From Acidobacteriota bacterium (GTDB lineage: Bacteria > Acidobacteriota > Thermoanaerobaculia > Gp7-AA8): a stretch of 64,000 nucleotides of DNA. The first letter of the stretch is position 1, and every line of letters starts with the position of its first letter. Below the pieces are notes generated by a model. That model made no database searches and was not told the DNA's origin. It saw only the letters and a list, made by a program, of their open reading frames with translations. Shown one piece after another: positions 36,703-53,576 of this stretch. Location: NCBI GenBank assembly GCA_016184115.1, contig JACPDH010000001.1, positions 1 through 64,000 on the forward strand, given 5' to 3'. Made by a program: the position numbers and the translations under genes.

Positions 36703-38856
36703 CTACTTCATCGCCGAGGCGCGCTTTCGCCACGCTGCCGCGCCTCGTTCGTTGCCTAACGTCGCGAGTGTCTCGGCGGCTACCGTGCATGCCTGTCTAT
36801 TGGGGTTCGCGGCGAACATCTGCTCGAGCACCCGGTCGACGCGCTCCGGCTTTCCGTCCACGAGATAGAGGACGGCCAGGCTCGAATATGCCGACAAGTT
36901 GCTCGGGTACCCTGCGATCTCCGCGAGAAATGCAGTTTCTGCTTCGCTGTTCCTGCCGACGGTCGCAAGAATGTCACCCCTCGCGTAATCGAGCAGTTCC
37001 ACTCTCACTCCCTGGCGCCTCGCTTCGTCTCGCGTGGAGTCGAGAAGGCGAAGCGCCTCATCGGTTTTGCCTGCCTTTGCGTACGCCTGCGCAAGAATGA
37101 CCGACGATCGTGCCTTCATCGTTGGGTCAGACATCGCCTCGGTTGCCTCGCGCTCCGCCACCGCGAAGTCGCCGCGCGCGAGTGCCACGCGGGCGAGCAG
37201 CGAGTGAGCGCCCGCGGAGTTGCTCTCGAGCGCCAGCTTTGCGTGCTCTTCCGCCTCGTCGAACCGGTTCATCCGAAGCAGCAGCCCGCCGAGAGATAGC
37301 GCCACCTCGTACATGACGACGTCGGAGCTCTTGAGAGCCTGTTTGTACGCGTCAACCGCCTCGGCGTTTCGCCCCATCTTCTCGTAGTTCGTGGCCAGCA
37401 GGCTCCACGCGTCTGCGAACCTCGGATTCTTCGCGACCACCGCCTCGTAGATCTCCAGCGCCTCTCCGACGCGCCCCTCGGTCGTCAGACGTGTCGCGTG
37501 CTTGATCTGCTCGAACTCCCCGATGTGCTCCTTCGGATCAGGCAGGTCGTCGCCGGTTCCCTGCGTGCTGCCTATGTAGCCTAACGCGGCGAGCTTCTGG
37601 GCTTCCTCCGGGCTGATGTTGACCGGCGCGATGATCTCCTTCCCGTATGCCTCGAGCTCTCTCTTCATCGCGGCGTATACGCGCCGTTCGTCGGCCAGGA
37701 CGTTCGTCTTCTGTTTCGGGTCGGCGACGAGATCGTAGAGCTCCGGAGTCGGCGCTTCGATGTATTGGTATCTGGCATCGGTCAGCGCCCGGAGCTCGCT
37801 CCACCCGAGATGTAGCCTCGGGTAGAGGGTCTCGCTGTAGACGCTCGTTGGGCGCTCGCCTACGGACGTGTCGAGCAACGAATGCCCCGCGAACGGCGTC
37901 GCCGGCCGGACCCCAGTCACACTCGCGATGGTCGGCGCCACGTCGATCAGCTGGACCAGCTCCTTCACCCTCTCGCCACCACGCATCGCCCCGGGAAGGC
38001 GAACGATGAGAGGCACGTGAACCGCCTCCCGATAGAGGAACACGCCGTGCTCGTCTTCGCCGTGGTCGCCGAGCCCCTCTCCGTGGTCAGAGAGCAGGAT
38101 GATCACAGCGCGATCGTAGATCCCCTTCTCCTTGAGAAACGCGACGAAGCGACCGACCAGCTCGTCGGACACCGCGATCTCTCCGTCGTACGGGTTCGAG
38201 GCATACGCGCTTCGAAACGGTTCCGTCGGCGCGTAAGGAGAGTGAGGCTCGAACACGTGGAGCATGAAGAAGAACGGACGCCCTTCGCGCTCGCCGATCC
38301 AGCGCTTCGCCACCTCGAGCGTCGCGCTGCCTGGACGCTGAAGCTGTCCGAGAGCGACCCCCGATTCGCTTCCAATCGCGTCCTCGTAAAAGTCGAATGC
38401 GCCGGAGAGGCCCGTGACGCCGCGGAGTACATACGCCGAGACTGCCGCGCCGCTCTCATACCCCGCCGTCTTGAGCGCCGCCGTAATCGCGGGATTCTTG
38501 ATCGCATCGTAGCGATAGCCGATGTTGTTGCGCACCCCGTTCGCGGGCGGGAGCTGTCCCGTGAGGATCGCGACATGCGCCGGCAACGTGAGAGGGACAT
38601 GCGAATAGGCGTTCTCGAAGAGGATTGATTCCGCCGCCAGCGCGTCGATATTAGGCGTCTTCACGGCGCCATAGCCGTAGGCCGGGAGGTGGTCGGCGCG
38701 GAGCGTGTCGATCGAGATCAGGATGATGGGAGCGCCTTCGAAGCGACCGGGGTCCGCGCTCCTCTCTCCCGCGCAGCCCGTCGCGGCGAGCCACACTGCT
38801 CCGAAGAGCGCGGCGAGGAGTCTGCGTCGCCGGTTCGCTGGTCCGGTCGTCATCAT
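36703..38856 (-). CDS. Sulfatase-fold/TPR lipoprotein 1 (Thr nucleophile)
   Basis: 717 residues from the ATG at 38856, which overlaps the upstream stop by ATGA. Lipobox LAATGC (Cys28). Alkaline-phosphatase-superfamily domain, about 40-430: metal ligands in ILISIDTLRADHLPAYGY and LLSDHGEGLGDHGE, and the nucleophile site VPLTLPAHVAILTG with Thr90 where sulfatases have Cys in CxPSR. The block SETLYPRLHLGWSEL...IEAPTPELYDL is shared by all four paralogues. After KLAALGYIGS come about six TPR-like repeats (about 455-700). Probably a phospho- or sulfo-ester hydrolase or transferase on the periplasmic side; substrate unknown. Translationally coupled to paralogue 2. Confidence 0.85.
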   Translation of the reverse strand: MMTTGPANRRRRLLAALFGAVWLAATGCAGERSADPGRFEGAPIILISIDTLRADHLPAYGYGAVKTPNIDALAAESILFENAYSHVPLTLPAHVAILTGQLPPANGVRNNIGYRYDAIKNPAITAALKTAGYESGAAVSAYVLRGVTGLSGAFDFYEDAIGSESGVALGQLQRPGSATLEVAKRWIGEREGRPFFFMLHVFEPHSPYAPTEPFRSAYASNPYDGEIAVSDELVGRFVAFLKEKGIYDRAVIILLSDHGEGLGDHGEDEHGVFLYREAVHVPLIVRLPGAMRGGERVKELVQLIDVAPTIASVTGVRPATPFAGHSLLDTSVGERPTSVYSETLYPRLHLGWSELRALTDARYQYIEAPTPELYDLVADPKQKTNVLADERRVYAAMKRELEAYGKEIIAPVNISPEEAQKLAALGYIGSTQGTGDDLPDPKEHIGEFEQIKHATRLTTEGRVGEALEIYEAVVAKNPRFADAWSLLATNYEKMGRNAEAVDAYKQALKSSDVVMYEVALSLGGLLLRMNRFDEAEEHAKLALESNSAGAHSLLARVALARGDFAVAEREATEAMSDPTMKARSSVILAQAYAKAGKTDEALRLLDSTRDEARRQGVRVELLDYARGDILATVGRNSEAETAFLAEIAGYPSNLSAYSSLAVLYLVDGKPERVDRVLEQMFAANPNRQACTVAAETLATLGNERGAAAWRKRASAMK

Positions 38857-41024
38857 CCGGTCGTTCTCGCCCGCACCGCCCACGATTTCGCGGAACCGGG
38901 CCTCCGGAGGTCGCGAAACGTGTCGGCCGCGAGCGCGTAACTCGAGCGCGATGGGTTTGCCTTTACCATGGCTTCGAACGTCTTGTTGGCATCGTCCTCG
39001 CGTCCTTCGAGCGTCAGGAGCACCGCTAGCCTAACGTACGCTTCGCGGTTCTGAGGAAAGTACCTGATCTCCTCCTCGAACGACTGTTTCGCATCCACGA
39101 GTTGACCCATCCGCGCATGTAGATCGCCGCGCGCGAAGTTGTAGGTCGCGAGCGGTTGTTGACCGAGCGCCGACGTTTCGGCCTTTACGCTATCGAGCAG
39201 CGACGCCGCCTCCGGAAACCTTCGTTGAAACGTGCGCACCTGGGCCATCAGGATCAAGCCGTCACGCTTGCGCGACGGATCTTCGATCACCTTCCGCGCC
39301 GCACGTTCGGTGGCGACGAGGTCGCGCTTCGCGAGGTAGGCCCGCGCGATCGTCAGGCGCGCAGCGCCTGGATGCACCTCGACCGCAAGCTCCGCATGCT
39401 TCACACAGTCGTCCCACCGGTTGAGCCTGAGGTAGACGTCGGCCATTGAAAGCGCTGTACCCGGCGCGAGCATCGGAGCGGCTTCGATCGTCTTCTTGTA
39501 TGCGTCGAGCGCCTCCTCGAAGCGCCCCTGCATCTCGAGCGTCTTTCCTAGCTGCGTCCAGCCGTCGGCGAATGCGGGGTTGCGAACGAGCACTTCACGA
39601 AGCAGCTTCGCCGACTCGGCGAGCTGTCCCCTCTGCGCGAGAGCCGCCGCCTTCGTGACGCCATTCATGTCGTGGATGCCGTCCTTGGGGTCGGGAAGAT
39701 CGGACGCGTTCGCCGCGCTGCTGACTGATCCGAGATAGCCGAGTGCGGCAAGCTTCGCCGCTTCTTCCGGATCGACGTTCGTCGAAACCTCGAGCCGACG
39801 GTCGTGCCCCTCCATTTCCTTCCTCATCGCGGCAAAGACGCGGCGCTGATCGGCAAGAACATTCGCCTTCTCGCTCGGGTCTGCGGCGAGATCGTACAGC
39901 TCCGGCTTCGGCGCTTCGATGAAGTGGTGCGTCGCGTCGATGAGCGATGCGAGGTCGCTCCATCCGAGGTGGATGCGCGGGTACATCGTCTCGCTGAAGA
40001 TCCGGCGGTCGGGCGTTTCGCCCTTCGCGATCTTCACGAGTGAGGTTCCCTTCACATTTGCCGGAACGTCGAAGCCGACGACCTCGGCGATCGTCGGCAG
40101 GATGTCGAGCAGTTGAACGGGGGTCTTCACTCGCGTTCCGGAGAGCTCGGCATCGGGCAGTTTGACGAGGAGGGGGACATGAATCGCTTCACGATAGAGA
40201 AAGATGCCGTGCTGCTCCTCGCCGTGGTCACCTAGCCCTTCGCCGTGGTCGGACATCAGGATGATCGTCGCATCATCGTAGACACCATTTCTCTTGAGCG
40301 ATTCGATGAGCTTGCCGACATCGGCGTCGCTCACCGCGATCTCGCCGTCGTAAGGGCGGTCGGCATACTGCGTCTTGAAGGGTTCGCGCGGCTCGTACGG
40401 CGCGTGCGGCTCGAAGACGTGCACGAAGAGGAAGAGCGGGTTGTCCTTCTTCTCCTCGACCCATCGGGCGGCGACCTCAACCGTCTCGTAACCCTGGCGT
40501 TGGAGGACACCGACCGAGCCCCCGCTGACCGTTCCAATCCGATCGTCGTAGCTGTCGAATGCTTCGGCGAGGCCCGTCGCTCCACGAAGAACGTACGCGG
40601 ACACCGCGGCAGCAGTCGAGTAGCCTTTCGCCTTGAGCAGCGTCGGGATGCTTGGGTGCTTCGCACTGTCGAATCGGTAGCCGAGGTTGTTCCGGACCGC
40701 AGTTTCGGCTGGAAGCGTGCCCGTAAGCATCGAGACATGCGAAGGGAACGTCAGCGGTACATGCGAGTAGGCGTTGTCGAATACGATCGCGTCTTTTGCG
40801 AGCGCATCAATGTTAGGCGTCGACACCTTGTCGTAACCGAATACCGGGAGATGGTCGGCACGAAGCGTGTCGATCGAGATGACAATCACGGGCAACGCGG
40901 GACGCCGGGCGAGAGGTGACTCCTTGCCGCAGGCGGCGAAGAAGAACGCAATCGCAACTGCGAGAGGAGCAGCCGCGCGCAGTGTTGCGCGGGGCGGGGA
41001 AAGGAACGATCGAGAGGGACTCAT
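38853..41024 (-). CDS. Sulfatase-fold/TPR lipoprotein 2 (Thr nucleophile)
   Basis: 723 residues from the ATG at 41024; a GTG at 41066 in frame would reach back towards the receptor terminator. Lipobox FFFAAC (Cys32). Same plan as its neighbour: VISIDTLRADHLPVFGY, VPLTFPSHVSMLTG (Thr92), MSDHGEGLGDHGE, SETMYPRIHLGWSDL, IEAPKPELYDL, KLAALGYLGS, then TPR repeats (VLVRNPAFADGWTQLGKTLE and others). It follows TonB-dependent receptor 1 on the same strand after 103 bp, with a terminator between, and precedes paralogue 1. Confidence 0.85.
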   Translation of the reverse strand: MSPSRSFLSPPRATLRAAAPLAVAIAFFFAACGKESPLARRPALPVIVISIDTLRADHLPVFGYDKVSTPNIDALAKDAIVFDNAYSHVPLTFPSHVSMLTGTLPAETAVRNNLGYRFDSAKHPSIPTLLKAKGYSTAAAVSAYVLRGATGLAEAFDSYDDRIGTVSGGSVGVLQRQGYETVEVAARWVEEKKDNPLFLFVHVFEPHAPYEPREPFKTQYADRPYDGEIAVSDADVGKLIESLKRNGVYDDATIILMSDHGEGLGDHGEEQHGIFLYREAIHVPLLVKLPDAELSGTRVKTPVQLLDILPTIAEVVGFDVPANVKGTSLVKIAKGETPDRRIFSETMYPRIHLGWSDLASLIDATHHFIEAPKPELYDLAADPSEKANVLADQRRVFAAMRKEMEGHDRRLEVSTNVDPEEAAKLAALGYLGSVSSAANASDLPDPKDGIHDMNGVTKAAALAQRGQLAESAKLLREVLVRNPAFADGWTQLGKTLEMQGRFEEALDAYKKTIEAAPMLAPGTALSMADVYLRLNRWDDCVKHAELAVEVHPGAARLTIARAYLAKRDLVATERAARKVIEDPSRKRDGLILMAQVRTFQRRFPEAASLLDSVKAETSALGQQPLATYNFARGDLHARMGQLVDAKQSFEEEIRYFPQNREAYVRLAVLLTLEGREDDANKTFEAMVKANPSRSSYALAADTFRDLRRPGSAKSWAVRARTTG

Positions 41025-41076
41025 CGGTCTCTGGACAACACGGAGCGCGCGCGCACGAATTCTCACGCAAAGCGAA

Positions 41077-41100
41077 AGGCCCCGGCCGAAGCCGGGGCCT
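41077..41100 (-). terminator. Terminator after TonB-dependent receptor 1
   Basis: AGGCCCCGGC and GCCGGGGCCT form a perfect 10-bp stem around CGAA. On the minus strand TTTCGCTTTG follows. It lies 28 nt past the receptor stop and before the hydrolase 2 start, so the hydrolase pair may need its own promoter or read-through. Confidence 0.85.
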
Positions 41101-41127
41101 CTCGTTACAGCAGTGCTTCGACTGGTA

Positions 41128-44124
41128 TTAGAAACGAATACCGGCCGAGAAGCGATACGTCAGCGGCAGCTGGTACGAGGCCGCTCCGGTCGCCTGACCG
41201 AAGTTCGTGGCCTTGCGCCATACCTGTCCGTTCGCACGGCACGTAGCCGTAGCCGTGCCCGCCGGGCACTCCTGCGGGGTGTCGGTGAACGGGTTGAAGG
41301 TCACGCCCGAGATGACGGCGATCGACGAGCTTCCGCCAACCTGCGCCTGCTCGTTGAAGGCGTTGATCAGCTCGCCCTGAACGAAGATATTGACCTTCTT
41401 GATCGGGAGCTCCCAGTTGAGCGCCAGATCGGTTGCGGTCGCGTCTTCGAAACGGAACTCGCCACGGTCGCTGAAATAGTAGAACGCGCTCGTCGGCGGA
41501 GTCGCATAGCCGGGGTTCGTCACGTAGTTGCTGACGTTGACGTTGCCGGCCGCCGAGTAGGGCGCGCCCGAGTCGAAGCGCTCGAGAAGGCTGAAGTTCA
41601 GGTTACCGAACATGCCGAGAGGCTGGTCGTACGAGACCCAGATGCGCGCCTTGTGCTCCTGGTCATTCGGCAGGAAGCCGACCGGGTTGTTGCGCGCATA
41701 CGCCTTGTACTCACGATAGAGATTGACCGCCGAGGAGCCGGGTCCGCCGCCGGTGGTCTCACCGACTTCGTTACCCCTCTGCTCGGACCAGGTGTAGTTG
41801 CCGCCGATGTTGAAGCGGTCCGTCAGGCGGTAATTCGCCTGGACCGAGAGGCCCTGGTAGGTCTTCTCAACGTCATTGTTGTTCGTGGTGGTGCGAACGT
41901 CGAGCAGCGAGCCGGCGACCACAACCTGATCGTTCGGGCTCGTCTCGACGCTGTAGAAGTCCTGCCAGTCCTTGTCGATGTAGTCGAAGCGAACGAAGCC
42001 CTTCGATCCGATCTGCGTGCCGAATCCGATTGTGAATTCGTCGACGTTCGGTGACTTGAGGCTTCCGTCAAATCGGGTGTTGGCACCCGGCACGACCGCA
42101 AAGACGAGGAATGGGTTGTCGGGCGACAGGCCGCCATTCTCATAGAACCAACGGAACATCTCGGTGATGACGTCGAACGAGCCCATGCCCGTTCCACGGC
42201 CGCCGATCTGATCGCCCGTGTAGTAGTAGCCGAAGTAGCTCGGGTTACCGCCGCCTGCCGCGCCACCGATCGTCTCCTGGATGCGCGAGACGTAGCGGCT
42301 GTAGCTGGCGTTGACACGGAACCGGCCGTCGCCGTTGATGTCATAGATGACGCTGAGGCGCGGGCTGGTGTTCGAGTCGTCCGAGATCGGCTTGCCAGCG
42401 CTGTCCTGACCGTCATTGGCGTCGTAGCGGAAGCCGATGTTGAAGCTCCACTTCGAGCCGAGATCCCACTTGTCGTTGATGAAGAACGACTCGGTCACGA
42501 AATCAGACCCCTTCGAGAGCAGTCCGATCGGAACGTAGCGGAGCACGTCGCCGTAGTTGAGAATCGGACGGAACGTGCCGTCGTCCTCATACTCCGGCGG
42601 CGTCGAGTAGACGTAGATGTCGAAGTTCGAGCCCGACTGGTAGTTGTTCGCAAAACGCGACTCGGCGAAGTTCTCGTAACCGGCCACGATGTTGTGCGTG
42701 CCGGCGCCTGCGGTCGCAAGGTAGTACGTTCCCTTGAGGAGGTAGTACTCGTTCTCGCGCGACTCGGGGTCGCACACGCCGCAGAAGATCGGGGCGCCCC
42801 AGGCGCCGCCGGCCACGGTGTAGTCATAGGCCCAGGTGCCGAGCGCCAGATCACGGATCTGGCTCTCGAAGTTCGCGCTGCCAGGGACGACGTTGAACGG
42901 ATCGGTCGTCGAGCGATAGTTACCACCGCTGTTCTCGAAGACGAGGTCGCGGGTCGAGTAACCAGCCTCGATGAGAAAGTTGCTCGTGAGGATGCCGTTG
43001 TACTGCGCGGTGATCATCTCGCGCGGCAGCTGCCGCCCGTCGATGTCCATCGTGTTGATGTCCCAGCAACCGAACGCGCAGTGCGGCGTCTGGTCGACCT
43101 CGTAGCTCAGATACGAACCGACGAGGCTGTGCTTCGGAGTGACCTGGCCGGTCAGCTTGACCTCATAGCGCTCGTCCGTCTGGATCGTGGCCGGACGGGG
43201 CTGCGCGCCGAGGGGATTCGCACCGCCGTTGATGAAGAATCCGGGGAAGGTCTGCTCGGCGTCGCGGCCCGCGCCGAAGAACCAGAGGCGGTCGCGAATG
43301 ATGCGGCCACCGAGGGTCGCTTCGTAGACTTCGTCGGTCACGCTGTCCTGCTGCGGCTCGCCGAAGTCGGTCGTCTTGTCCCACGACGGGTTGGTGAAGC
43401 TGTCGCGGAAGCTGCCGGAGAACTCGTTGCCGCCCGACTTGGTGATCGCCGAGACAACGCCTCCGGTGAAGCGGCCGTACTCGGCCGACACCGAACCGGT
43501 GATGATCGACGTTTCCTGGATGGCGTCCTCGATGTAGAGGTTATCCGTCTGTCCACGAACGTTCTCATTCGTCACCGCACCGTTGACGAGGTACAGCGTG
43601 TCGTACGCGTACGCGCCAGACACTACGATGGCGGTCGCGCTGCCGGTGACGCCCGGAGCGAGCTGAACCGTGTTCTGCACGGTACGGCCGATCGGGAGGT
43701 CCTCAATCATCTCTGCTTCGTAGTTGGACTGAACTTCGGTCGTCTCGAGGACGGCCGGGGCCGCAGCCGTAACCGTGATTACATCGGCAACCGCGGAGAG
43801 CTGCATGAGCGCGTTCACGCGCTCGGTCTTGGCAAGGCCGACCTTGATCGTCTTGGTGACGGTGCCCATGCCTTCCATTTCGAACTTCACGGTGTAATCC
43901 CCAGGGGGAAGTGCCGGGAAGTTGTAATCGCCGTTGACGTTCGAAACGCCGACGCGCGTACCGATGAGTGACGGCGAACTGATGGTGATCGTGACACCCG
44001 GGAGCGGTGCGCCCTCGTGCGTGACGGTTCCATTCAGCGAGCCGGTCGTGCCCTGGCCGAACGCCGAACCGGCGACCAGCAGGAGCACAGCGACCAGAAA
44101 CACAAAACGCTGCGTAACCTTCAT
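41128..44124 (-). CDS. Oar-like TonB-dependent receptor 1
   Basis: 998 residues. Signal peptide (MKVTQRFVFLVAVLLLVAGS, cut before QGTTGS), then a carboxypeptidase-regulatory-like beta-sandwich (about 25-105: GSLNGTVTHEGAPLPGVTIT, GDYNFPALPPGDYTVKFEME), a plug (EDLPIGRTVQNTVQLAPGVTG; DNLYIEDAIQETSIITGSVS; GRFTGGVVSAITKSGGNEFSG) and a long beta-barrel ending YRFSAGIRF. This is the Oar/SusC-related group typical of Acidobacteriota and Myxococcota. GGAGGG lies before the ATG. The close paralogue at 46912-49854 has the same architecture. Ligand unknown; flanked by hydrolase/TPR lipoproteins on both sides. Confidence 0.92.
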   Translation of the reverse strand: MKVTQRFVFLVAVLLLVAGSAFGQGTTGSLNGTVTHEGAPLPGVTITISSPSLIGTRVGVSNVNGDYNFPALPPGDYTVKFEMEGMGTVTKTIKVGLAKTERVNALMQLSAVADVITVTAAAPAVLETTEVQSNYEAEMIEDLPIGRTVQNTVQLAPGVTGSATAIVVSGAYAYDTLYLVNGAVTNENVRGQTDNLYIEDAIQETSIITGSVSAEYGRFTGGVVSAITKSGGNEFSGSFRDSFTNPSWDKTTDFGEPQQDSVTDEVYEATLGGRIIRDRLWFFGAGRDAEQTFPGFFINGGANPLGAQPRPATIQTDERYEVKLTGQVTPKHSLVGSYLSYEVDQTPHCAFGCWDINTMDIDGRQLPREMITAQYNGILTSNFLIEAGYSTRDLVFENSGGNYRSTTDPFNVVPGSANFESQIRDLALGTWAYDYTVAGGAWGAPIFCGVCDPESRENEYYLLKGTYYLATAGAGTHNIVAGYENFAESRFANNYQSGSNFDIYVYSTPPEYEDDGTFRPILNYGDVLRYVPIGLLSKGSDFVTESFFINDKWDLGSKWSFNIGFRYDANDGQDSAGKPISDDSNTSPRLSVIYDINGDGRFRVNASYSRYVSRIQETIGGAAGGGNPSYFGYYYTGDQIGGRGTGMGSFDVITEMFRWFYENGGLSPDNPFLVFAVVPGANTRFDGSLKSPNVDEFTIGFGTQIGSKGFVRFDYIDKDWQDFYSVETSPNDQVVVAGSLLDVRTTTNNNDVEKTYQGLSVQANYRLTDRFNIGGNYTWSEQRGNEVGETTGGGPGSSAVNLYREYKAYARNNPVGFLPNDQEHKARIWVSYDQPLGMFGNLNFSLLERFDSGAPYSAAGNVNVSNYVTNPGYATPPTSAFYYFSDRGEFRFEDATATDLALNWELPIKKVNIFVQGELINAFNEQAQVGGSSSIAVISGVTFNPFTDTPQECPAGTATATCRANGQVWRKATNFGQATGAASYQLPLTYRFSAGIRF

Positions 44125-44539
44125 CTAACCCTCCGTAAATATTTGAACAACGCCCACGGAAAAAATGCCAGACTCCTGCGTCCTATGCAGGAATCGGTCA
44201 CAAATTGCCCAAACCGGCAACGCATTAGAACCAAAAGACCTTAGAAAATCAACCCGCAAAGATCCCACCCCCTCGAATCCAGCCCGTTGAACCGGGAGGG
44301 TCGGTTTTCCGAATTGACCCGCCCCACGCGTCCATGGGTGAAGGAGCGACCCCCTTGTGGTGGAGCCGTCCCGCCTTCGTGGCACATGGGAGTGTGCTGC
44401 TTGTAGCGCCGGCACTCCGTGACGGCGTGCCGCCGAAGGCGGCGTGCTGCGGCCGGGAGGTGCGGCGTGAGCGCAGCGCCGAGGCACTTGGGAATGTGCC
44501 GCCACGAGTCGGAGTGAACCAAGGCTCAGACCTCGCGCC
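44125..44539. other. 415-bp intergenic region: receptor 1 leader and palindrome cluster
   Basis: No gene seen. Near the receptor, TCCTGC...GCAGGA (44174-44192) forms a leader hairpin. Between 44375 and 44508 several overlapping stems occur: GGCACTCCG/CGGCGTGCC (44411-44431, one mismatch), GCCGCC-GAA-GGCGGC (44429-44443), and an outer imperfect pair CTTCGTGGCACAT (44375-44387) with ATGTGCCGCCACGAG (44494-44508). The cluster probably ends hydrolase 3 transcripts. Confidence 0.6.
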
Positions 44540-46678
44540 TCACGGGAGCCGGGCCGCACGCGCGCGCCACCGCCGCTCACCCGCCGGGTTGTCGGTCACG
44601 CGGCATGTGTCGGCGGCAAAGAGCGCCGCACGTTTCGTCGGGCTCGCCGACACCATGCGCTCGAGTGCGCGCTCCGCATCGGACATTCGACCCTGCGTCA
44701 GATGAAGGATCGAAAGGCGCGCGTACGCGTCGAGCGTCTTCGGATGCGCACTGATCTCGCTCTCGAACGCCTCTTCCGCCTCTCGGAAACGCTGCAGTCT
44801 CGCCAGCGCGTCGCCACGAATCAGGTCGATGTCCTCGACTGCGCCAAGGCTTGCCGTATCGCGCTTCGTCGCATCGAGCAGCGCCATCGCTTCCGCGAGC
44901 CTTCCCGTCGCGACCTCCACGCGCGCGAGTTGCACGGCGGCGTCGGCACGACGAATCGAATCCCCCATCGCCGCCTTCGCCTCACGCTCGGCACCCGCGG
45001 CATCTCCTCGGGCGAGCGCAACACTGCTTAACAGGAGGTGTGCAGATCCGGGAGAACGGCCGAGCGCGAGACGCGCATGGTCAGCCGCGGCGTCGAGGCG
45101 TCCCGACCTGAAGAGGAACCATCCGTACGTCATCGCGAATCCGGGCGCGAGCGATGGCGAGGTCGCGATCGACCGGCGATACGCCTCATCCGCTTCGCGG
45201 TCAATCCCCGCGCGCTCGCACGCGATGGCAAGCCTGAACCACGCGTCGGCAAAATCTGGACTGTCATCGAGCACCGCGCGGTAGAGCTTGATCGCGCCGC
45301 GGTAGTCGTCGTGCTTCTCGAGTTGCGCGGCACGCTTCATCGTCTCGAGATCTTCGAACCGGTCCTTCGGATCGGGCAGCGGACCTTCGGCTTCGGAACG
45401 AACCGAACCGATGTAGCCGAGCGCGGCGAGCTTGGCTGCGTCTTCAGGTGCGACGTTCGATGGCGAGTCGAACTTCGGCTCGTATTCCAGCATCTCCTTC
45501 TTGAGCGCGGCGTACTCACGTCGTCGCTCGCTGATCATGTTCGCCCGCTCGGATGGGTCCGATACGAGGTCGTAGAGCTCGGGCCGCGGCGCTTCGATGT
45601 AGTGATGGCGATCGTCAATCAGCGAACGCAGCTCGCTCCAGCCGAAGTGAATCCGCGGGAGGTAGGTCTCGCTGTAGATCGGTCGCGCATCGGCGTTAGG
45701 CTCCGCCAAAAGCGACTTCCCGCGAAGCCCCGCGGGAGCGTCGACCTTCGCGAGCGCTGCGAGCGTCGGCACGACATCGATGAGCTGGACGTTTCGATCA
45801 ACGGCCGTCCCCGCGAGTCTTGATCCTGGGAGCTTGAGCATGAGCGGCACGTGAATCGCTTCCCGATAGAGGAATAGACCGTGTTCCTGCTCACCATGAT
45901 CGCCGAGCCCTTCGCCGTGGTCCGAGAGCACCACGATGATTGCGCGATCGTAAATGCCCGCTGACTTGAGGGACTCGAAGAACTCTCCCACGAGGCTGTC
46001 CGCCGTCGCGATCTCGGCGTCGTACGCGCTCGCGTATCGGGACTTGAATGGCTCCGCGGGCTCATACGGCGCGTGAGGCTCGAAGAGATGAACGAAGAAG
46101 AAGAAGGGCTTCGCTTCGCGCGCGGAGATCCATCGCGCCGCCGAATCGAGCGTCGCCTTCCCGGGACGCGACAGCTCCCCGATGCTGACGTTCGAGCGAG
46201 CGAGAAGCGCGTCATCGTAGAAGTCGAACGCACGGGCGAGTCCCGTGTTGCCCCGCAGCACGTATGCAGACACCGCGGCGCCGGTCTCGTATCCCGCCTT
46301 CTTCAGCAGACCAGGCAGAGTGGCGTGCTTCGCGCCGTCGAACTCATAGCCCAGGTTGTTCCTGACTCCGTGCTCCTGAGGAAGGAGGCCCGTCAGGATC
46401 GAGATGTGCGAGGGAAGTGTCATCGGGCAGGGCGAGTACGCGGCTCGAAAGAGCACTGCATCCCGACGGAACGAATCGAGCGCAGGTGTCTCGACATCCT
46501 GGTATCCGTACGCGGGGAGGTGGTCGGCGCGGAGCGTGTCGATCGAGACGACGATCACCGGAGCGCCGGCGTACGAGCCTTCAGCCGGCGGGCCCTCGCG
46601 CTCCCTCGAACACGATAGAGTGAGAACGAGCGCCGCGAAGCCTAACGCGACGCGAAACCGGGACGCGCACGTTGCCAT
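44540..46678 (-). CDS. Sulfatase-fold/TPR lipoprotein 3 (Thr nucleophile)
   Basis: 712 residues from the ATG at 46678; an ATG at 46714 would add 12 residues and cannot be excluded. Lipobox TLSC (Cys23). VSIDTLRADHLPAYGY, CPMTLPSHISILTG (Thr87; a Cys lies three residues before it), LSDHGEGLGDHGE, SETYLPRIHFGWSEL, IEAPRPELYDL, KLAALGYIGS and a C-terminal set of TPR-like repeats. It lies downstream of TonB-dependent receptor 2 on the same strand, mirroring the receptor 1-hydrolase 2 arrangement. Confidence 0.85.
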   Translation of the reverse strand: MATCASRFRVALGFAALVLTLSCSREREGPPAEGSYAGAPVIVVSIDTLRADHLPAYGYQDVETPALDSFRRDAVLFRAAYSPCPMTLPSHISILTGLLPQEHGVRNNLGYEFDGAKHATLPGLLKKAGYETGAAVSAYVLRGNTGLARAFDFYDDALLARSNVSIGELSRPGKATLDSAARWISAREAKPFFFFVHLFEPHAPYEPAEPFKSRYASAYDAEIATADSLVGEFFESLKSAGIYDRAIIVVLSDHGEGLGDHGEQEHGLFLYREAIHVPLMLKLPGSRLAGTAVDRNVQLIDVVPTLAALAKVDAPAGLRGKSLLAEPNADARPIYSETYLPRIHFGWSELRSLIDDRHHYIEAPRPELYDLVSDPSERANMISERRREYAALKKEMLEYEPKFDSPSNVAPEDAAKLAALGYIGSVRSEAEGPLPDPKDRFEDLETMKRAAQLEKHDDYRGAIKLYRAVLDDSPDFADAWFRLAIACERAGIDREADEAYRRSIATSPSLAPGFAMTYGWFLFRSGRLDAAADHARLALGRSPGSAHLLLSSVALARGDAAGAEREAKAAMGDSIRRADAAVQLARVEVATGRLAEAMALLDATKRDTASLGAVEDIDLIRGDALARLQRFREAEEAFESEISAHPKTLDAYARLSILHLTQGRMSDAERALERMVSASPTKRAALFAADTCRVTDNPAGERRWRARAARLP

Positions 46679-46860
46679 CCCAGTCGGACGAAAGCTGCTG
46701 GAAGTCGTTTGCATTCGGATGAGCCTTGCCGATTCCGGCCGGCGTATCGCGTCGCGGCTCGGCGATCACCCTGCGCGATCGCGACGAACCAGAATCGCAC
46801 ATCCGGCCCGCGTCGCAACACGCTTTTGCGATCGTCAAGTGTTCCGCACCGAAGAGAAAA

Positions 46861-46886
46861 GGCCCCGATCCCGAAGGACCGGGGCC
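46861..46886 (-). terminator. Terminator after TonB-dependent receptor 2
   Basis: GGCCCCGATC pairs with GACCGGGGCC (one mismatch) around a 6-nt loop; on the minus strand TTTTCTCTTC follows. It lies 26 nt past the receptor stop. Confidence 0.8.
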
Positions 46887-46911
46887 CCACTTCGTGGTAA
46901 CTGTCCGGCGA

Positions 46912-49854
46912 TTAGAAGCGCACGCCGACCGAGAAACGATAGGTCAGCGGAAGCTGGTACTGATTCGCCGAGGTTGCCGTGCCGAACGTCGACGGAATCG
47001 CGTAGTTCGTGCCGAGGACTGGCGTCTCCGAGAACGGGTTGAACGCGATGCAGCGGATCGCCGCGCCCGCACCGTCCTTGCAGTTTCTCGCGGTACTTGT
47101 GGAGGTCGTGATCGCGGTGTTGCCCGAGATCTGCGCCTGCTCGTCGAAGACGTTGAGAAGCTCGGCCTCGATGAAGAGGTTCGCCTTCGCGATCGGGAAC
47201 TGATAGTTGAGCGCGAGGTCGGTGCGAGTCACGTCGTCCCAGCGAAATTCTCCGCGGTCGCTGAAGTAATACGTCACGCTGGTCGGCTCCGCGAGGTACC
47301 TGGAGCCGATGTCGGCGCCGGCGGCGGGATCGGGCCGCGCCGAGATTGTTCCAACGTACGAGTACGGCGTGCCCGAATCCAGGTTTTGAAGGAGACTGAC
47401 GTTCAGGCTTCCAAACCGGCCGAACGAGAAGTCTGTCGCCATCCAGACGCGTAGCTTGTGCGTCTGGTCGCCCGGGAGGAAGCCCTCCGGCCGGTTCTGG
47501 ATGAAGCCCTGGTACTCGGGATACTGAAGAATCCAGCCGCCGTCGGCCTGCGGGCCGCCCGCGGTGCCTTCGCCTTCGGCGTTGCCTCGGAGCTCGGACC
47601 ATGTGTAGTTGCCGCCAACCGAAATGCGGTTTCCGATGCGGTACTGACCCTGCAACGTCACGCCTTTGTAGTTGCGATAGAGCAGGTCGGTGTTCCGGAC
47701 GAGCGTGAGGTCGGCGCGCGCTCCGGTGTTAGGCTCGGTGACCTGACCGGTCGAAAGATCGGTGAAGTTGCCGTAGTAGTTGTTCCACTCACGGTCGATG
47801 TAGTCGAGACGCGCGAACCCGTTGCCAATCTGCGTCGCGAAGCCGACCGAGTACTCGTCCATCCCGGGAGCCTTGAGCTTTCCGTCGAGCCTTCGGCTGA
47901 ATCCGCCGATGTTCACTGCATCGGGCGGATGGAGATCGACGTCGATGCCGCCGACCGAATTGAACCAGTCGATGACGCCTTTGACGACCGTGGCGGAGTC
48001 GCCGACGATCGGCTCGCCGTCGTAGTACCAGTAATAGTCCCAGGGGCTGCCGGCCGCCGAACCTGCGCCCTGCACGGTCTCCGCGAGGCGACCGACGTAC
48101 TTGCCATAGCTCGCGTTGATCTTGTACTTGCCGTCGCCCTTGATGTCGTAGGTCGCGGCGAGACGCGGGCTGACTGCAGTGTCGTTCGAGGTCGCGTTGC
48201 CTGCCTGGTCGACCGCGTCGTTCTTGTCGTAACGCGCGCCGATGTTGAACGAGAAGTTGTCGTTCAGGTCCCACTTGTCGTTGAGGAAGACCGACTGTGT
48301 CTGCAGGTCCGAACCGAGCGACGGATAGACGACCGGCCAGTAGTCGATCTCGTCGCCTGCGCCGAAGGTGTACGTTACCGTTCCATCAGGATTGCGAACG
48401 GCCGGAGTGTTGAAGATGTAGATCACGAGGTTAGTCGGCGACTGATAGTTGTTCGCCTCGCGCTGCTCGGAGAAGTCCTCGACACCGGCAACGAAATTGT
48501 GCGTGCCAAGCGTCGGCGAGCTGACGAAGTAGGTGCCCTTGATCGTCAGCAACTGGTTGTCGCGGAACTCGTCCCCGCAGCTGCCGCAGAAGAATGGAGC
48601 GTTTGCGACGCCGCTGCCACCGACGAGAATGCGCAACGGGGTACCGAGGTACGGGTCGGTATTCGTGCCGCCAAAGCCGACGAACGTGAAGCCGCGCTCG
48701 GAGTAGTTGACCTCGGTCAGGAAGTTCGACGTCCAGATGCCGGAGTAGTGGGCGGCCTTGAAATCATTGTCCTGCTCGATCTCGGGATCGAGTGCCTTTT
48801 GCTCGTAGACGCCGAGCTGGTTGTTGTTGGTCGAACTGAACGGGTTGTCGAGGTAGTTCGCCACGACCGAATGCTTCGAGGTGATCTGTCCGGTCAGTTT
48901 GCCTTCCCAGCGATCGTTTTTCGAGTCGGAGAAGATCTGCTCGGAGCTGTTCACGAAGGTCGCTCCGGCCGTCGTCCGCTCTGCGGAGCGTCCGGCAGCG
49001 AAGAACCAGAGGCGGTCGCGAATGATGCGCCCACCGAACGTCGCCTCGTACGTCTCGTTGAGCGTGCTGTCGGCGCGCGGTTCGTCCGCTTTACTCGGAT
49101 TCGTCCACGACGGATTGTCGAAGCTGTCGCGGAACGAACCAGAGAACTCGTTGCCGCCGGACTTCGTGATGGAGCTGATCACACCGCCGGTGAAGCGACC
49201 GTACTCGGCGGAAATCGAGCCCGTCATCACGGTCGTCTCCTGGATGGCGTCCTCGATGAAGAGGCTCTCGGCCTGTCCGCGGAGGTTTTCCTGGATGTTT
49301 GCGCCATTGACCAGGATCAGGTTGTCGCTCGCGAACGAGCCCGACATCACAAGCGCCGACCGCGGACCGTTGCTCGTGGTTCCGGGCGCGAGGAGCGCGA
49401 CCGCGGTAACCGTCCGGCCGAGCGGGAGCTCATTGATCTCGGTCTGCGTGAAGTTGGTCTGAACCTCCGTGGTCTCCATGACCGAAGGGGCGCTCGCGGT
49501 CACGGTAATCTGCTCCGCGATCGACGAGAGCTGCAGCGTCGCGTTGGCGCGCGCAGCCTGGGCAACACCCACCTTCACGTTGCGTATGGCAGGAGTCATC
49601 CCTTCCATCTCGAACTTCACCGTGTAGTCCCCGGGAGGAAGAGCCGGCAGGTTGTAGTCGCCATTCACATTGGAATACGTGACACGCGTTCCCTGCAGCG
49701 CCGACGAGCTGACTGTGATCGTCACACCGGGAAGCGGCGCTCCCTCGTGCATCACGGTTCCATTCAGCGTTCCCGTCGTGCCCTGTCCGATCGCCGGTGC
49801 GGCGATCAGCACAAGCACGAATGCGAGCAATGCGATTCTCGATATCAACTGCAT
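46912..49854 (-). CDS. Oar-like TonB-dependent receptor 2
   Basis: 980 residues from the ATG at 49854, chosen for GGAGGG about 5 nt upstream and the signal peptide that follows (MQLISRIALLAFVLVLIAAP, cut before QGTTGT). Carboxypeptidase-regulatory-like domain (about 25-105), plug with NELPLGRTVTAVALLAPGTT, ESLFIEDAIQETTVMTGSIS and GRFTGGVISSITKSGGNEFSG, and a barrel ending YRFSVGVRF. Clearly a paralogue of receptor 1, differing mostly in the barrel, so probably a different ligand. Followed by a terminator and then hydrolase 3. Confidence 0.92.
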   Translation of the reverse strand: MQLISRIALLAFVLVLIAAPAIGQGTTGTLNGTVMHEGAPLPGVTITVSSSALQGTRVTYSNVNGDYNLPALPPGDYTVKFEMEGMTPAIRNVKVGVAQAARANATLQLSSIAEQITVTASAPSVMETTEVQTNFTQTEINELPLGRTVTAVALLAPGTTSNGPRSALVMSGSFASDNLILVNGANIQENLRGQAESLFIEDAIQETTVMTGSISAEYGRFTGGVISSITKSGGNEFSGSFRDSFDNPSWTNPSKADEPRADSTLNETYEATFGGRIIRDRLWFFAAGRSAERTTAGATFVNSSEQIFSDSKNDRWEGKLTGQITSKHSVVANYLDNPFSSTNNNQLGVYEQKALDPEIEQDNDFKAAHYSGIWTSNFLTEVNYSERGFTFVGFGGTNTDPYLGTPLRILVGGSGVANAPFFCGSCGDEFRDNQLLTIKGTYFVSSPTLGTHNFVAGVEDFSEQREANNYQSPTNLVIYIFNTPAVRNPDGTVTYTFGAGDEIDYWPVVYPSLGSDLQTQSVFLNDKWDLNDNFSFNIGARYDKNDAVDQAGNATSNDTAVSPRLAATYDIKGDGKYKINASYGKYVGRLAETVQGAGSAAGSPWDYYWYYDGEPIVGDSATVVKGVIDWFNSVGGIDVDLHPPDAVNIGGFSRRLDGKLKAPGMDEYSVGFATQIGNGFARLDYIDREWNNYYGNFTDLSTGQVTEPNTGARADLTLVRNTDLLYRNYKGVTLQGQYRIGNRISVGGNYTWSELRGNAEGEGTAGGPQADGGWILQYPEYQGFIQNRPEGFLPGDQTHKLRVWMATDFSFGRFGSLNVSLLQNLDSGTPYSYVGTISARPDPAAGADIGSRYLAEPTSVTYYFSDRGEFRWDDVTRTDLALNYQFPIAKANLFIEAELLNVFDEQAQISGNTAITTSTSTARNCKDGAGAAIRCIAFNPFSETPVLGTNYAIPSTFGTATSANQYQLPLTYRFSVGVRF

Positions 49855-50344
49855 AGATCCCTCCTGTTGAATGTGAACGACGCCGGGCTCATCCCAACGC
49901 CGCTGGTCAATGCGCGTTTCGTTACCGACTCCCTGCGGCCGACACGAGCGACCGGTGCGCGGATGTCGCTTCGCAGAACGTCGAATCGATGCGTTGTCTC
50001 CCGTTTGAAACCTGCTTTCGGTCCCTCGAGTCCATAACTCGCGGTGCCGCACGTGGGCGGCTCTCATCTGCACACCTCACCCATTTCGGGCCCGCACTCG
50101 AAGTGCATGAGCCCGGCCCGCGAGGCAGGGTGTTGAATCCGCGCGTGAGGCAATTCAGCCTCACGGCGCCACAGCCGGTGAATCGAGGCCCGCCGCTCGG
50201 GGGCCACGCCGACTGTAAGGCCACGCATTGAAACGCACGCGCTCGAAGCCACGCGGTGGCCGAGGTCACGCCTGATGTGTGAGGTCCGCCCCAATCACTT
50301 GTGAGCGCCGCGGAGGAACAGGACGCAACTCGCTTCGGTGATGC
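49855..50344. other. 490-bp intergenic region upstream of receptor 2
   Basis: No gene recognised. It should hold the receptor 2 promoter, which I cannot place with confidence. One perfect hairpin, GTGAGGC-AATTCA-GCCTCAC (50145-50164), is visible. The far end carries the tail of the minus-strand epimerase transcript. Confidence 0.55.
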
Positions 50345-51244
50345 TCAATCACGGGCGAGCAGATTCGCGAGCGCCTCACCGAGTCGCGGTTGCGCAAAGC
50401 GAAATCCTTCGCGCAAAGCCCGCGCAGGCACGATCCTCGCGCCCTGCAGCAGGAGCGGCTCTGCCATTTCACCGAGCGTCGCCCTCAGGGCGAACGCGGG
50501 AGCAGGAAACAACGCCGGCCTGTGCAACGCTCTCGCGAGGGTTCGCGTGAGCTCCGCGTTCGTGACCGGTTCAGGCGCCGTTGCGTTGTAAACGCCGCGC
50601 GCCGAGCCACTCGCGATCACCCAGGCGAACATCGCAACGAGATCGTCGACGTGTATCCACGACATCCACTGCTGACCGCTGCCGAGCCTGCCGCCGACTC
50701 CCATGCGAAAGGGAAGAAGCATCCTGCCTAACGCGCCCCCCTCGGTCGCCAGAACGATGCCGATACGCATGACGACGACGCGCGCTGCGCCGTCCGCTCG
50801 GAGTGCCTCGTTCTCCCAGTCGACCGAAACCTGCGAAAGGAACGAGTCGCCAGGTGCCGCACTTTCGTCCAGCACGTCTCCTCGACCTGTGCCGTAGTAG
50901 CCGATTGCCGACGCGCTGACGAAGACTCGTCGCAGATCAGGAGTCTCTCGAATCGCATCGACCAGCGCGCGCGTCGCGCTGACGCGACTCTCGCGGATCT
51001 CGCGCTTGCGTGCCGCGGTCCAGCGCTTGTCAGCGATGCCCGCACCGGCGAGGTTGATGACCGCGCTCGCGCTCGCGACCTCGCTCTTCCACGCGTCGCT
51101 CGCTCCGCCCCATTCCACACCGCGCGAGTCCCTAACTGCCGAAGGGTCGCGACTCAGGATGACGACGTTGTCGCCTCGCGTCGAGAATAGCCGAGTGAGC
51201 GCCCGTCCGATGAACCCGCTTCCTCCCGCAATGACGATCTTCAT
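50345..51244 (-). CDS. SDR39U1-type NAD(P)-dependent epimerase (YfcH/TIGR01777 family)
   Basis: 299 residues from the ATG at 51244, which has GGAGG 7 nt upstream. Rossmann motif GGSGFIGRALTRLF at the N-terminus, NLAGAGIADKRWTAARKREI, the YYGTGRGDVLDESAAPGDSF block with the catalytic Tyr region, and the C-terminal GEMAEPLLLQGARIVPARAL motif of the DUF1731 tail are all present. The family is widespread but its substrate is unknown. It interrupts the receptor/hydrolase cluster but shares its strand; whether it takes part is unclear. Confidence 0.88.
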   Translation of the reverse strand: MKIVIAGGSGFIGRALTRLFSTRGDNVVILSRDPSAVRDSRGVEWGGASDAWKSEVASASAVINLAGAGIADKRWTAARKREIRESRVSATRALVDAIRETPDLRRVFVSASAIGYYGTGRGDVLDESAAPGDSFLSQVSVDWENEALRADGAARVVVMRIGIVLATEGGALGRMLLPFRMGVGGRLGSGQQWMSWIHVDDLVAMFAWVIASGSARGVYNATAPEPVTNAELTRTLARALHRPALFPAPAFALRATLGEMAEPLLLQGARIVPARALREGFRFAQPRLGEALANLLARD

Positions 51245-51340
51245 GGCACGCCTCCGCGGAACGATCATCCAACTTTCGGCTTCGCGGAACCAGTGGCCTT
51301 ATTGGGAAGTCGTCCAGGTCGCAGCGTCGCAACCCTCGCA

Positions 51341-51362
51341 GCGGCGGATTCCGGTCCGCCGC
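51341..51362 (-). terminator. Hairpin after hydrolase/TPR lipoprotein 4
   Basis: GCGGCGGA pairs perfectly with TCCGCCGC around TTCCGG, about 100 nt beyond the gene end. No T-run, so only a possible terminator. Confidence 0.4.
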
Positions 51363-51461
51363 CATCCCATCGTGCGTGCCGAAGCGCGAATCGCTCCCTT
51401 CGCACATTCTCTTCCGCGCTTCGCGCGAAACCACGCATTGGAATGCGCGGCTGCGAGCTGC

Positions 51462-53576
51462 CTACCTCCCCTGCCGTTCCCCTTCTTCGATCACGCGCAG
51501 CGTCTGGCGCGCGAGCGCCTCCATCCCCCGACCTGGGTTCGTCCGCGTCGCCGTCTCGAGGATCGCTCGTGCCTCCGCGCCTCGGCCCTGCGCACCAACC
51601 ACGAGCGCAAGACTCGACCAGGCACGCGCGTTGTCGGGGAACGCATCGGTCTCCGCGCGCAATGCCGCTTCCGCTTCACCAACGCGGCGCAGCCTCAGAA
51701 GTGCCTCGCCTCTGCGGAGCTCGAGCTCGCGGATCGGCGGCATGCGGAAGTTCGCGACAATCGTCTTCGTCCTGTCGAGGTACTCGAGCTCCTCCGCAAA
51801 CCGCTGCTGCCTGTTCCGGATCTCCGAGAGCATCATGAGCGGCTGGACGCGCTCCGGCTCGATGGCGAGCACCTTCTCCGCCTCTGCCTCTGCGACATCG
51901 AGCCTTCCCTCGGCGAACGCAATCTGCGCGAGCAGCTCCCCTGCAAATGCGGGCGAGAAGCTCAGCGCGAGCTCGGCGTGCTTCCTCGCTTCGTCGTAGC
52001 GCCTCAGCCTCATGTAGATGTTGGCCATCTCCATCGCCACCTGCGGACTCGCCGAGCGCTTCATCTGCTCCTCGAACGCCGCGAGTGCGAGGTCGTACTT
52101 CTCCATCTTCAAGTACGTGGAGCTGAGAAGCCCCCACCCGTGTAGAAAATCGGGATTGTCGCGCACGAGCGTGCGCCCGACCTCGAGCGCCTCGGAGTAA
52201 TGCCCTCGCTCGATGTACGCCGTGCCTTTCCCCATGAGGGTCAGAGCATCGAGTTTATCCTTCGGGTCTGGAAGGTCACCCGACGTGGCCGAGGGACCCG
52301 AACCGAGGTAGCCGAGCGCCGTCAGCTTCGCGACATCCTCGGGATCGGCGGCGCGCGGCTGCTCGAACGGGTGCGCGGCGACGACCGCCTGCGCTGCGCG
52401 CCTGCGGTCTGCAACCACGCGGCGCTGGTCGCTCGCGATGTTCTTCATCTCACGCGGATCTGTTGCACGGTCGTAGAGCTCGACGGTCGGCGCCTCGATG
52501 AAGTGATGTTTGGCATCGACGAGCGAGATCAGCTCCTTCCAGCCGTAGTGGAGACGCTGGTAGTACGACTCGCTGTAGATTGCGCGCTCCGCCGCAGCGG
52601 TCGCGCCGAAGAGATCGACTCCGTCAAGCCCCGTGGGTGAGCCAATGCCGAGCCTTGCGAGGACCGTCGGCAGGATGTCGACGATCGAGGCGACGGTTGC
52701 AACCTCCTGGCCGGCCCGTTCGCCCGCCGGCAGTTTGATCATGAGCGGCACCTGGATCGCTTCGTTGTAGAGAAGGACGCCGTGCGCGATCTCGCCATGG
52801 TCTCCAAGGCCTTCGCCGTGGTCGGACATCAGAATGATCAGCGCACGGTCGTAGAGGCCCTTCGCGCGAAGCTCGTCGAGGAACTTCCCCACGATCGCGT
52901 CGGAGTACGCCACTTCGCCGTCGTAAGGCGCGGCGGCGAAACGCGACTTGTATGGCTCGGGCGGCGTGTACGGCCCGTGCGGCTCATAGATATGAAGGAA
53001 TGCGAAGACACGAGGGCCCGCGTTCTTCTCGAGCCATTTCGCGAGCAGCTCACGCGAGAGGTCGCCGTCGCGGGTCCACGACGTGAGCGTTTCCATCGGC
53101 GAGACCGTCATGAGGTCGTCGTACTCGTCGAAGCCACGCTCGATACCAGTCTCGCCACGAATGACGAAACTCGACACTGCCGCGCCGGTCGCGTAGCCGT
53201 TCCGTTTCAGGATCGCCGCCAGCGTCGTCTGCTCCTCCTTTAGTACGTAGCCGACGTTGTCGCGAACACCATGCCGGTAAGGGAGGAGGCCCGTCATGAG
53301 CGAAGCGTGAGACGGAAGAGTCAGCGGTACGTGGCTGAACGCGGAGCGGAAGAGAACGGCGTCCTTGCGGAAGCGGTCGATCTCCGGCGTTGAGCCATTC
53401 GCGTAACCGTACGCCGGCAGGTGGTCGGCACGGAGCGTGTCGATGGAAATGATGAAGACCGGGGTGTCGGCTGCGACCGCGGCCACCGGCTTTTCCTTAC
53501 CGCACCCGATCGCGATCAATGCGGCGGCCAGGGCTAGCGAACGAAGATTCCTTTTCACGACGGTCGGTAACGGCAC
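51462..53576 (-). CDS. Sulfatase-fold/TPR lipoprotein 4 (Thr nucleophile)
   Basis: 704 residues from the GTG at 53576; a GTG at 53558 (seventh codon) is an alternative. Lipobox IAIGC (Cys25). IISIDTLRADHLPAYGY, VPLTLPSHASLMTG (Thr86), LMSDHGEGLGDHGE, SESYYQRLHYGWKEL, IEAPTVELYDR, KLTALGYLGS, then TPR-like repeats to the end. It is the most divergent of the four and is not directly next to a receptor. It lies downstream of tsaD, from which a bidirectional terminator separates it. Confidence 0.85.
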   Translation of the reverse strand: MPLPTVVKRNLRSLALAAALIAIGCGKEKPVAAVAADTPVFIISIDTLRADHLPAYGYANGSTPEIDRFRKDAVLFRSAFSHVPLTLPSHASLMTGLLPYRHGVRDNVGYVLKEEQTTLAAILKRNGYATGAAVSSFVIRGETGIERGFDEYDDLMTVSPMETLTSWTRDGDLSRELLAKWLEKNAGPRVFAFLHIYEPHGPYTPPEPYKSRFAAAPYDGEVAYSDAIVGKFLDELRAKGLYDRALIILMSDHGEGLGDHGEIAHGVLLYNEAIQVPLMIKLPAGERAGQEVATVASIVDILPTVLARLGIGSPTGLDGVDLFGATAAAERAIYSESYYQRLHYGWKELISLVDAKHHFIEAPTVELYDRATDPREMKNIASDQRRVVADRRRAAQAVVAAHPFEQPRAADPEDVAKLTALGYLGSGPSATSGDLPDPKDKLDALTLMGKGTAYIERGHYSEALEVGRTLVRDNPDFLHGWGLLSSTYLKMEKYDLALAAFEEQMKRSASPQVAMEMANIYMRLRRYDEARKHAELALSFSPAFAGELLAQIAFAEGRLDVAEAEAEKVLAIEPERVQPLMMLSEIRNRQQRFAEELEYLDRTKTIVANFRMPPIRELELRRGEALLRLRRVGEAEAALRAETDAFPDNARAWSSLALVVGAQGRGAEARAILETATRTNPGRGMEALARQTLRVIEEGERQGR

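Follow-up and report, generated by a model that had tools for sequence, protein, structure and literature searches.

We describe four TPR-tailed lipoproteins of the sulfatase fold, encoded alongside two Oar-type TonB-dependent receptors in an Acidobacteriota genome, that carry Thr at the position of the catalytic Cys of sulfatases and that, judging from sequence and a structure model, are very probably not sulfatases but phosphoester enzymes. Their genes lie beside such receptors in many relatives, and the comparison of genomes suggests an undescribed receptor-plus-enzyme system in Acidobacteriota. The reading that we prefer, to which we give a probability of about one half, is that these are metal-dependent phosphoester hydrolases from the alkaline phosphatase superfamily, anchored at the envelope, that act through Thr90 (P0001 numbering) and process the ligand of the receptor or a product of it. 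Below, ‘the window’ is the whole stretch of DNA that was analysed (64,000 nucleotides), and coordinates refer to it.

Genes and layout of the locus

The four hydrolase genes, which had been proposed from the letters of the sequence with no strand given, hold up as real and complete open reading frames: their minus-strand frames are open, whereas the plus-strand translations are full of stops, and Pfam matches and signal peptides agree with the architecture given in Table 1. In the direction of transcription, the order is P0004, the SDR gene, [P0006, P0003], and [P0005, P0002, P0001], with P0002 and P0001 overlapping by 4 bases (ATGA). The order receptor-hydrolase(-hydrolase) does, as originally claimed, occur twice; the SDR gene is probably not part of the system.

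Table 1. Positions of the genes and predicted nucleophiles in the window
Feature	Coordinates	Strand	Description
P0001	36703..38856	minus	717 aa; lipoprotein signal, Thr-type sulfatase-fold domain (~41-405), TPR tail (447-715)
P0001 codon T90	38587..38589	minus	predicted nucleophile (alignment to PsS1_NC, homologue survey)
P0002	38853..41024	minus	723 aa; architecture like P0001; predicted nucleophile T92 (40749-40751)
P0005	41128..44124	minus	998 aa; Oar-type TonB-dependent receptor, upstream of P0002
P0003	44540..46678	minus	712 aa; architecture like P0001; predicted nucleophile T87 (46418-46420)
P0006	46912..49854	minus	980 aa; second Oar-type TonB-dependent receptor, upstream of P0003
SDR/YfcH-like gene	50345..51268	minus	between P0004 and P0006; open reading frame named by inspection only
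P0004	51462..53576	minus	704 aa; GTG start; architecture like P0001; predicted nucleophile T86 (53319-53321)

All four hydrolases match Sulfatase (PF00884, E 2.6e-40 to 2.5e-44), SGSH_C (PF16347), and several TPR families, and all four begin with a signal peptide and a Cys in a lipobox-like setting, which is weaker in P0003 (LTLSC). P0002, P0003, and P0004 are 47, 50, and 40% identical to P0001, respectively, P0004 being the most divergent of the four. The motifs SIDTLRADHL and SDHGEGLGDHGE are kept in every paralogue, and a conserved linker (LxxLGY...DPK) joins the sulfatase-fold domain of P0001 to its tail. Conservation, expressed as the mean majority share, is 0.42 in the TPR tail vs 0.62 in the catalytic core; the weaker value fits a tail whose partners would differ between paralogues.

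Both receptors have the domains of the Oar type (CarboxypepD_reg, Plug, and TonB barrel in Pfam). The model of P0005 (pLDDT 85.7) is that of a plugged TonB-dependent transporter, and its best matches among solved structures are the TonB-dependent transporters FecA, FusA, and YddB; SusC-type structures are absent from these best matches. In the window's genome, about seven genes match the receptor barrel family, two of which are at this locus. The P0005 clade has a third member in the same genome (L102:8016-11024 = G000:C89:45057-48020), 74% identical, which has no adjoining hydrolase. A tandem of two receptor-hydrolase-hydrolase blocks is also found in a different genus (L080/L111, G011:C42:58000-75000). 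The strand opposite the receptor genes contains very long open frames (859 aa; e.g. window 47458-50037, plus strand), which probably arise from the high G+C content of the coding sequence.

Linkage of the hydrolases to TonB-dependent receptors

Profiles of the hydrolase and the receptor were run over regions around relatives in 61 genomes, and in named genomes; a locus was testable with a flank of at least 2.5 kb on each side and linked when a receptor lay no more than 1.5 kb away. Two sets that overlap in part each gave linkage at 26 of 43 loci (~60%), across Acidobacteriota. Per 100 kb, the two sets have 51 and 58 receptor edges up to 500 bp from the hydrolase, 8 and 7 between 0.5 and 1.5 kb, and 0–2 beyond 3 kb. 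The density near the hydrolase exceeds that beyond 3 kb by a factor of 25 or more, and on this fall we reject chance adjacency to abundant receptors. Chance is likewise rejected from the receptor side, where 16 of 46 receptors of the P0005 clade in the family lie within 2 kb of a hydrolase, against ~0.5 expected. The linkage on which the original prediction depended is thus present in relatives, common and enriched, but it is not obligate: the other 30 receptors of the clade are without a hydrolase neighbour, and ~40% of hydrolase loci are without a receptor.

This incompleteness in either direction favours a different reading, in which the hydrolases are independent of the receptor and their proximity reflects shared regulation (e.g. 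under phosphate or iron starvation) or past block duplication. So do the well-conserved loci that hold a hydrolase only (e.g. L052, L053, L055, and L056) and the pairs that are convergent instead of co-directional, of which the second set has many. Against independence stand the strength of the enrichment over many families, whichever gene the count starts from, and the orientation in the first set, where, of 37 linked receptors, 31 share the strand of the hydrolase, 27 of them upstream. The two genes also show a modest co-phylogeny. Receptor and hydrolase distances correlate overall (Mantel rho 0.29, p 0.001) and over 24 receptor-hydrolase pairs compared within genomes (rho 0.51, p 0.011), both values including kinship, and shared ancestry may account for part of the correlation. 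Independence seems to us somewhat improbable, and a functional partnership between the hydrolase and the adjacent receptor plausible.

An all-against-all comparison of open reading frames around the hydrolase loci revealed no other recurring neighbour family, and hence no third conserved partner gene. A SusD homologue beside the receptor was also considered and rejected: the SusD family (PF07980) was found in 0 of 21 genomes (the window's genome and 20 relatives). Moreover, 15 unlinked receptor loci of the same clade have neither a TPR nor a sulfatase neighbour, and a role of the TPR lipoprotein as a general lid of Oar-type receptors is therefore not supported. The SusC/SusD pairs of Bacteroidota resemble the locus in combining a CarboxypepD_reg receptor with a lipoprotein of TPR-type helices; they differ in that the Acidobacteriota partner is a catalytic fusion and in that the receptors here often stand alone and have their best structural matches elsewhere, as noted above. 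We found no description of a receptor-hydrolase pair in Acidobacteriota in the open-access literature, a scope that makes this weak evidence of absence; neither the widespread association with Oar-type receptors nor the fusion to a TPR tail appears to be described there.

The active site and its known relatives

That Thr and not Cys occupies the nucleophile position is confirmed by alignment with the S1 sulfatase PsS1_NC (6pt4, wild type; 6pt6, C84S; 6ptk, C84A). In this sequence alignment, T90 of P0001 falls on the catalytic Cys84, the Arg of CxPxR is replaced by His94, and the pocket Lys by His270. All 94 homologues that span this position have Thr. In a joint alignment of the Thr-type hydrolases with Cys-type sulfatases from the same class, 12 of the 13 Cys-type proteins have D/C/R/N at positions 51, 90, 94, and 258 (P0001 numbering), and 37 of the 39 Thr-type proteins have T/T/H/H there, the remaining two deviating solely at position 94; the switch therefore affects the whole pocket. 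In the tree from this alignment, the Cys-type proteins form one clade (support 1.0). The original prediction had named two outcomes that would speak against it, a Cys at the nucleophile position and a lack of receptor linkage in relatives; since Thr is at this position and the linkage is real, neither was found.

Thr at this position is not new in itself. It replaces the catalytic Cys or Ser in 30 of the 59 sequences of the PF00884 seed (PMC5066984), and the paralogues belong to a known, badly named group. YejM, for example, was once predicted to be a sulfatase, carries Thr, and has Mg-dependent phosphatase activity (PMC7576196). YejM/PbgA shares the sulfatase-like fold with our proteins, but it has a membrane domain and a role in outer-membrane regulation, and the match to it reaches only ~20-27 bits.

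We modelled P0001 with AF2 from an alignment of 59 sequences (pLDDT 91.6). Sequence and model together outline a pocket of Asp50, Thr90, Asn111, His205, Asp257, His258, Glu260, and His270; these residues and His94 are among those invariant in 59 diverse homologues. The pocket bears out, in part, the proposed likeness to phosphoethanolamine transferases. Zn1 of MCR-1 is bound by Glu246, Thr285, Asp465, and His466, with Thr285 phosphorylated (PMC5216409), and a corresponding set (Glu/Asp, Thr, Asp, His) appears to be supplied by D50, T90, D257, and H258, as does a second-site set (His, His, Glu) by H205, H270, and E260. The spacing of Asp257-His258-Glu260-His270 equals that of Asp465-His466-Glu468-His478 in MCR-1. 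An hhalign comparison with an EptA-like protein of the same genome pairs the same residues but is ~4 residues off at Thr.

These likenesses, with the Thr nucleophile and the predicted envelope location, are what commends a reading of the four proteins as transferases, in which Thr90, by analogy with MCR-1/EptA and LtaS, would move a phospho-head group (phosphoethanolamine or phosphoglycerol) from a lipid to a surface glycan, to lipid A, or to the receptor. The rest of the protein argues otherwise. P0001 has a signal peptide only and no N-terminal transmembrane, lipid-binding domain; the NCBIfam models for EptA, MCR, and LtaS score about 20-30 bits on the hydrolases vs cut-offs of 500 or more; the C-terminal part differs, with a lipid anchor and a TPR tail in addition; and a separate EptA-like gene is present in the same genome. 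Among solved folds, the P0001 model comes closest to S1 sulfatases and to phosphonate monoester hydrolases, with Z 37-42, C-terminal subdomain included, and the resemblance to phosphoethanolamine transferases is for this reason confined to the pocket. With no membrane domain and a fold of the phosphonate monoester hydrolase/sulfatase kind, we favour a hydrolase over a transferase and regard the latter as unlikely.

The closest fold is that of S1 sulfatases (Z up to 42): PsS1_NC and choline sulfatase (7oz8) superpose with Z ~40 and 2.5-2.8 A over ~355 residues and share the nucleophile position and the pocket residues Asp50, His205, and Asp257. This fold, the PF00884 and SGSH_C matches, and the presence of FGE-family genes in the genome (C64 and C8) would suit true sulfatases that use an unmodified Thr in a hydrolytic mechanism. 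What is specific to sulfatases has, however, been replaced together. The signature [CS]-x-P-x-R, whose Cys or Ser becomes formylglycine, gives way to T-[LF]-P-[SA]-H in all four proteins (TLPAH, TFPSH, TLPSH, and TLPSH in P0001 to P0004). In the metal-ligand set Asp-Asp ... Asp-Asn, the second Asp is Thr51 and the Asn is His258, and the hydrolases have a TPR tail besides. Formylglycine formation from Thr has never been demonstrated, and oxidation of Thr would yield a ketone instead (PMC5066984). True sulfatase activity is accordingly very improbable, and the suspicion voiced in the original prediction that ‘sulfatase’ may be the wrong name is very probably right. Among the PF00884 proteins found in the window's genome, none has a Cys nucleophile: those encoded elsewhere in it (C112/L001, C94/L002, C90/L007+L009, and C8/L008) are also without the Cys nucleophile motif. 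The FGE-family genes may do something else.

Two further families are informative. Phosphonate monoester hydrolases/phosphodiesterases (4uph, Z 38.7; 2vqr, Z 37.7) share the fold, with 26-28% identity over aligned residues, a soluble catalytic domain, and likely phosphoester chemistry; unlike the proteins studied here, they use a formylglycine nucleophile (CxPxR) and are without a TPR tail. We know of no receptor linkage for them. NPP/type I phosphodiesterases have a Thr nucleophile, in a TxPN-like motif, and their Pfam model (PF01663) matches the hydrolases at 55.9-63.1 bits vs a cut-off of 23. For the second Zn site of NPPs (Asp, His, His), His205 and His270 are possible candidates; no equivalent Asp was identified.

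Proposed function and distribution

Metal-dependent phosphoester hydrolysis through Thr90 is, on sequence and model, the likely chemistry. A metal ion (Zn, Mn, or Mg) coordinated by Asp50, Asp257, and His258 would activate Thr90, whose attack on phosphorus would give a phospho-threonine intermediate; the His residues would stabilize the group, which water would then release. Anchored by its lipid, the enzyme would stay at the envelope, positioned through its TPR tail, probably on a protein partner. The hydrolase would process a phosphorylated ligand taken up by the receptor, or its product after uptake; we consider this the most likely role because the gene is so often found just downstream of an Oar-type receptor. 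The repeated receptor-enzyme modules might then serve different ligands. A part in uptake or signalling, a periplasmic location, and partners for the TPR tail, all of which formed part of the original prediction, are putative. A bolder extension, which we offer tentatively and think rather doubtful, is a complex found throughout Acidobacteriota in which the catalytic TPR lipoprotein, in place of a non-catalytic SusD lid, would cleave or transfer a phosphoester of the ligand on the TonB-dependent receptor.

The least probable reading, by analogy with Oar of Myxococcus xanthus, is that the receptor takes part in secreting or placing the hydrolase: the receptors share the N-terminal domain architecture of Oar, and Oar-dependent secretion has been shown, yet this architecture occurs in 28% of all such receptors and the known partner of Oar is the protease PopC, with no such hydrolase mentioned in the parts of that publication consulted (PMC6434023), and our hydrolases look lipid-anchored.

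The preferred reading, phosphoester hydrolysis coupled to a receptor, bears on annotation. By the Pfam model, many Acidobacteriota genes of this family would be annotated as sulfatases and could then be taken as a sign of sulfated-glycan use; if their products act on phosphoesters, that conclusion is mistaken for a phylum with high abundance in soils and sediments. The linkage, for its part, is a lead to the cargo of a group of orphan TonB-dependent receptors and perhaps also to how Acidobacteriota obtain or remodel organic phosphorus.

Of 119 genomes sampled from across the phylum, 72 contain the hydrolase family (E below 1e-60). The groups named in records with the family include Thermoanaerobaculia, Vicinamibacteria, Terriglobia, Aminicenantes, and Holophagales; more distant relatives occur in Planctomycetota and in one Gemmatimonadetes genome. 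The nearest named relative (L110), at 76% identity, points to Thermoanaerobaculia as the class of the window's genome. A second subfamily of Thr-type TPR hydrolases (HNVVTLPSH ... GDHGEALGDHGELTHGLF) often adjoins the first in the same operon (L085, L094, L096, L097, L083, L084, and others). One lineage of the class, family f8 (G026, G029, G032, G035, G038, G041, G044, and G047), has 34-43 strong PF00884 matches per genome, true Cys-type sulfatases included, whereas the lineage of the window has few.
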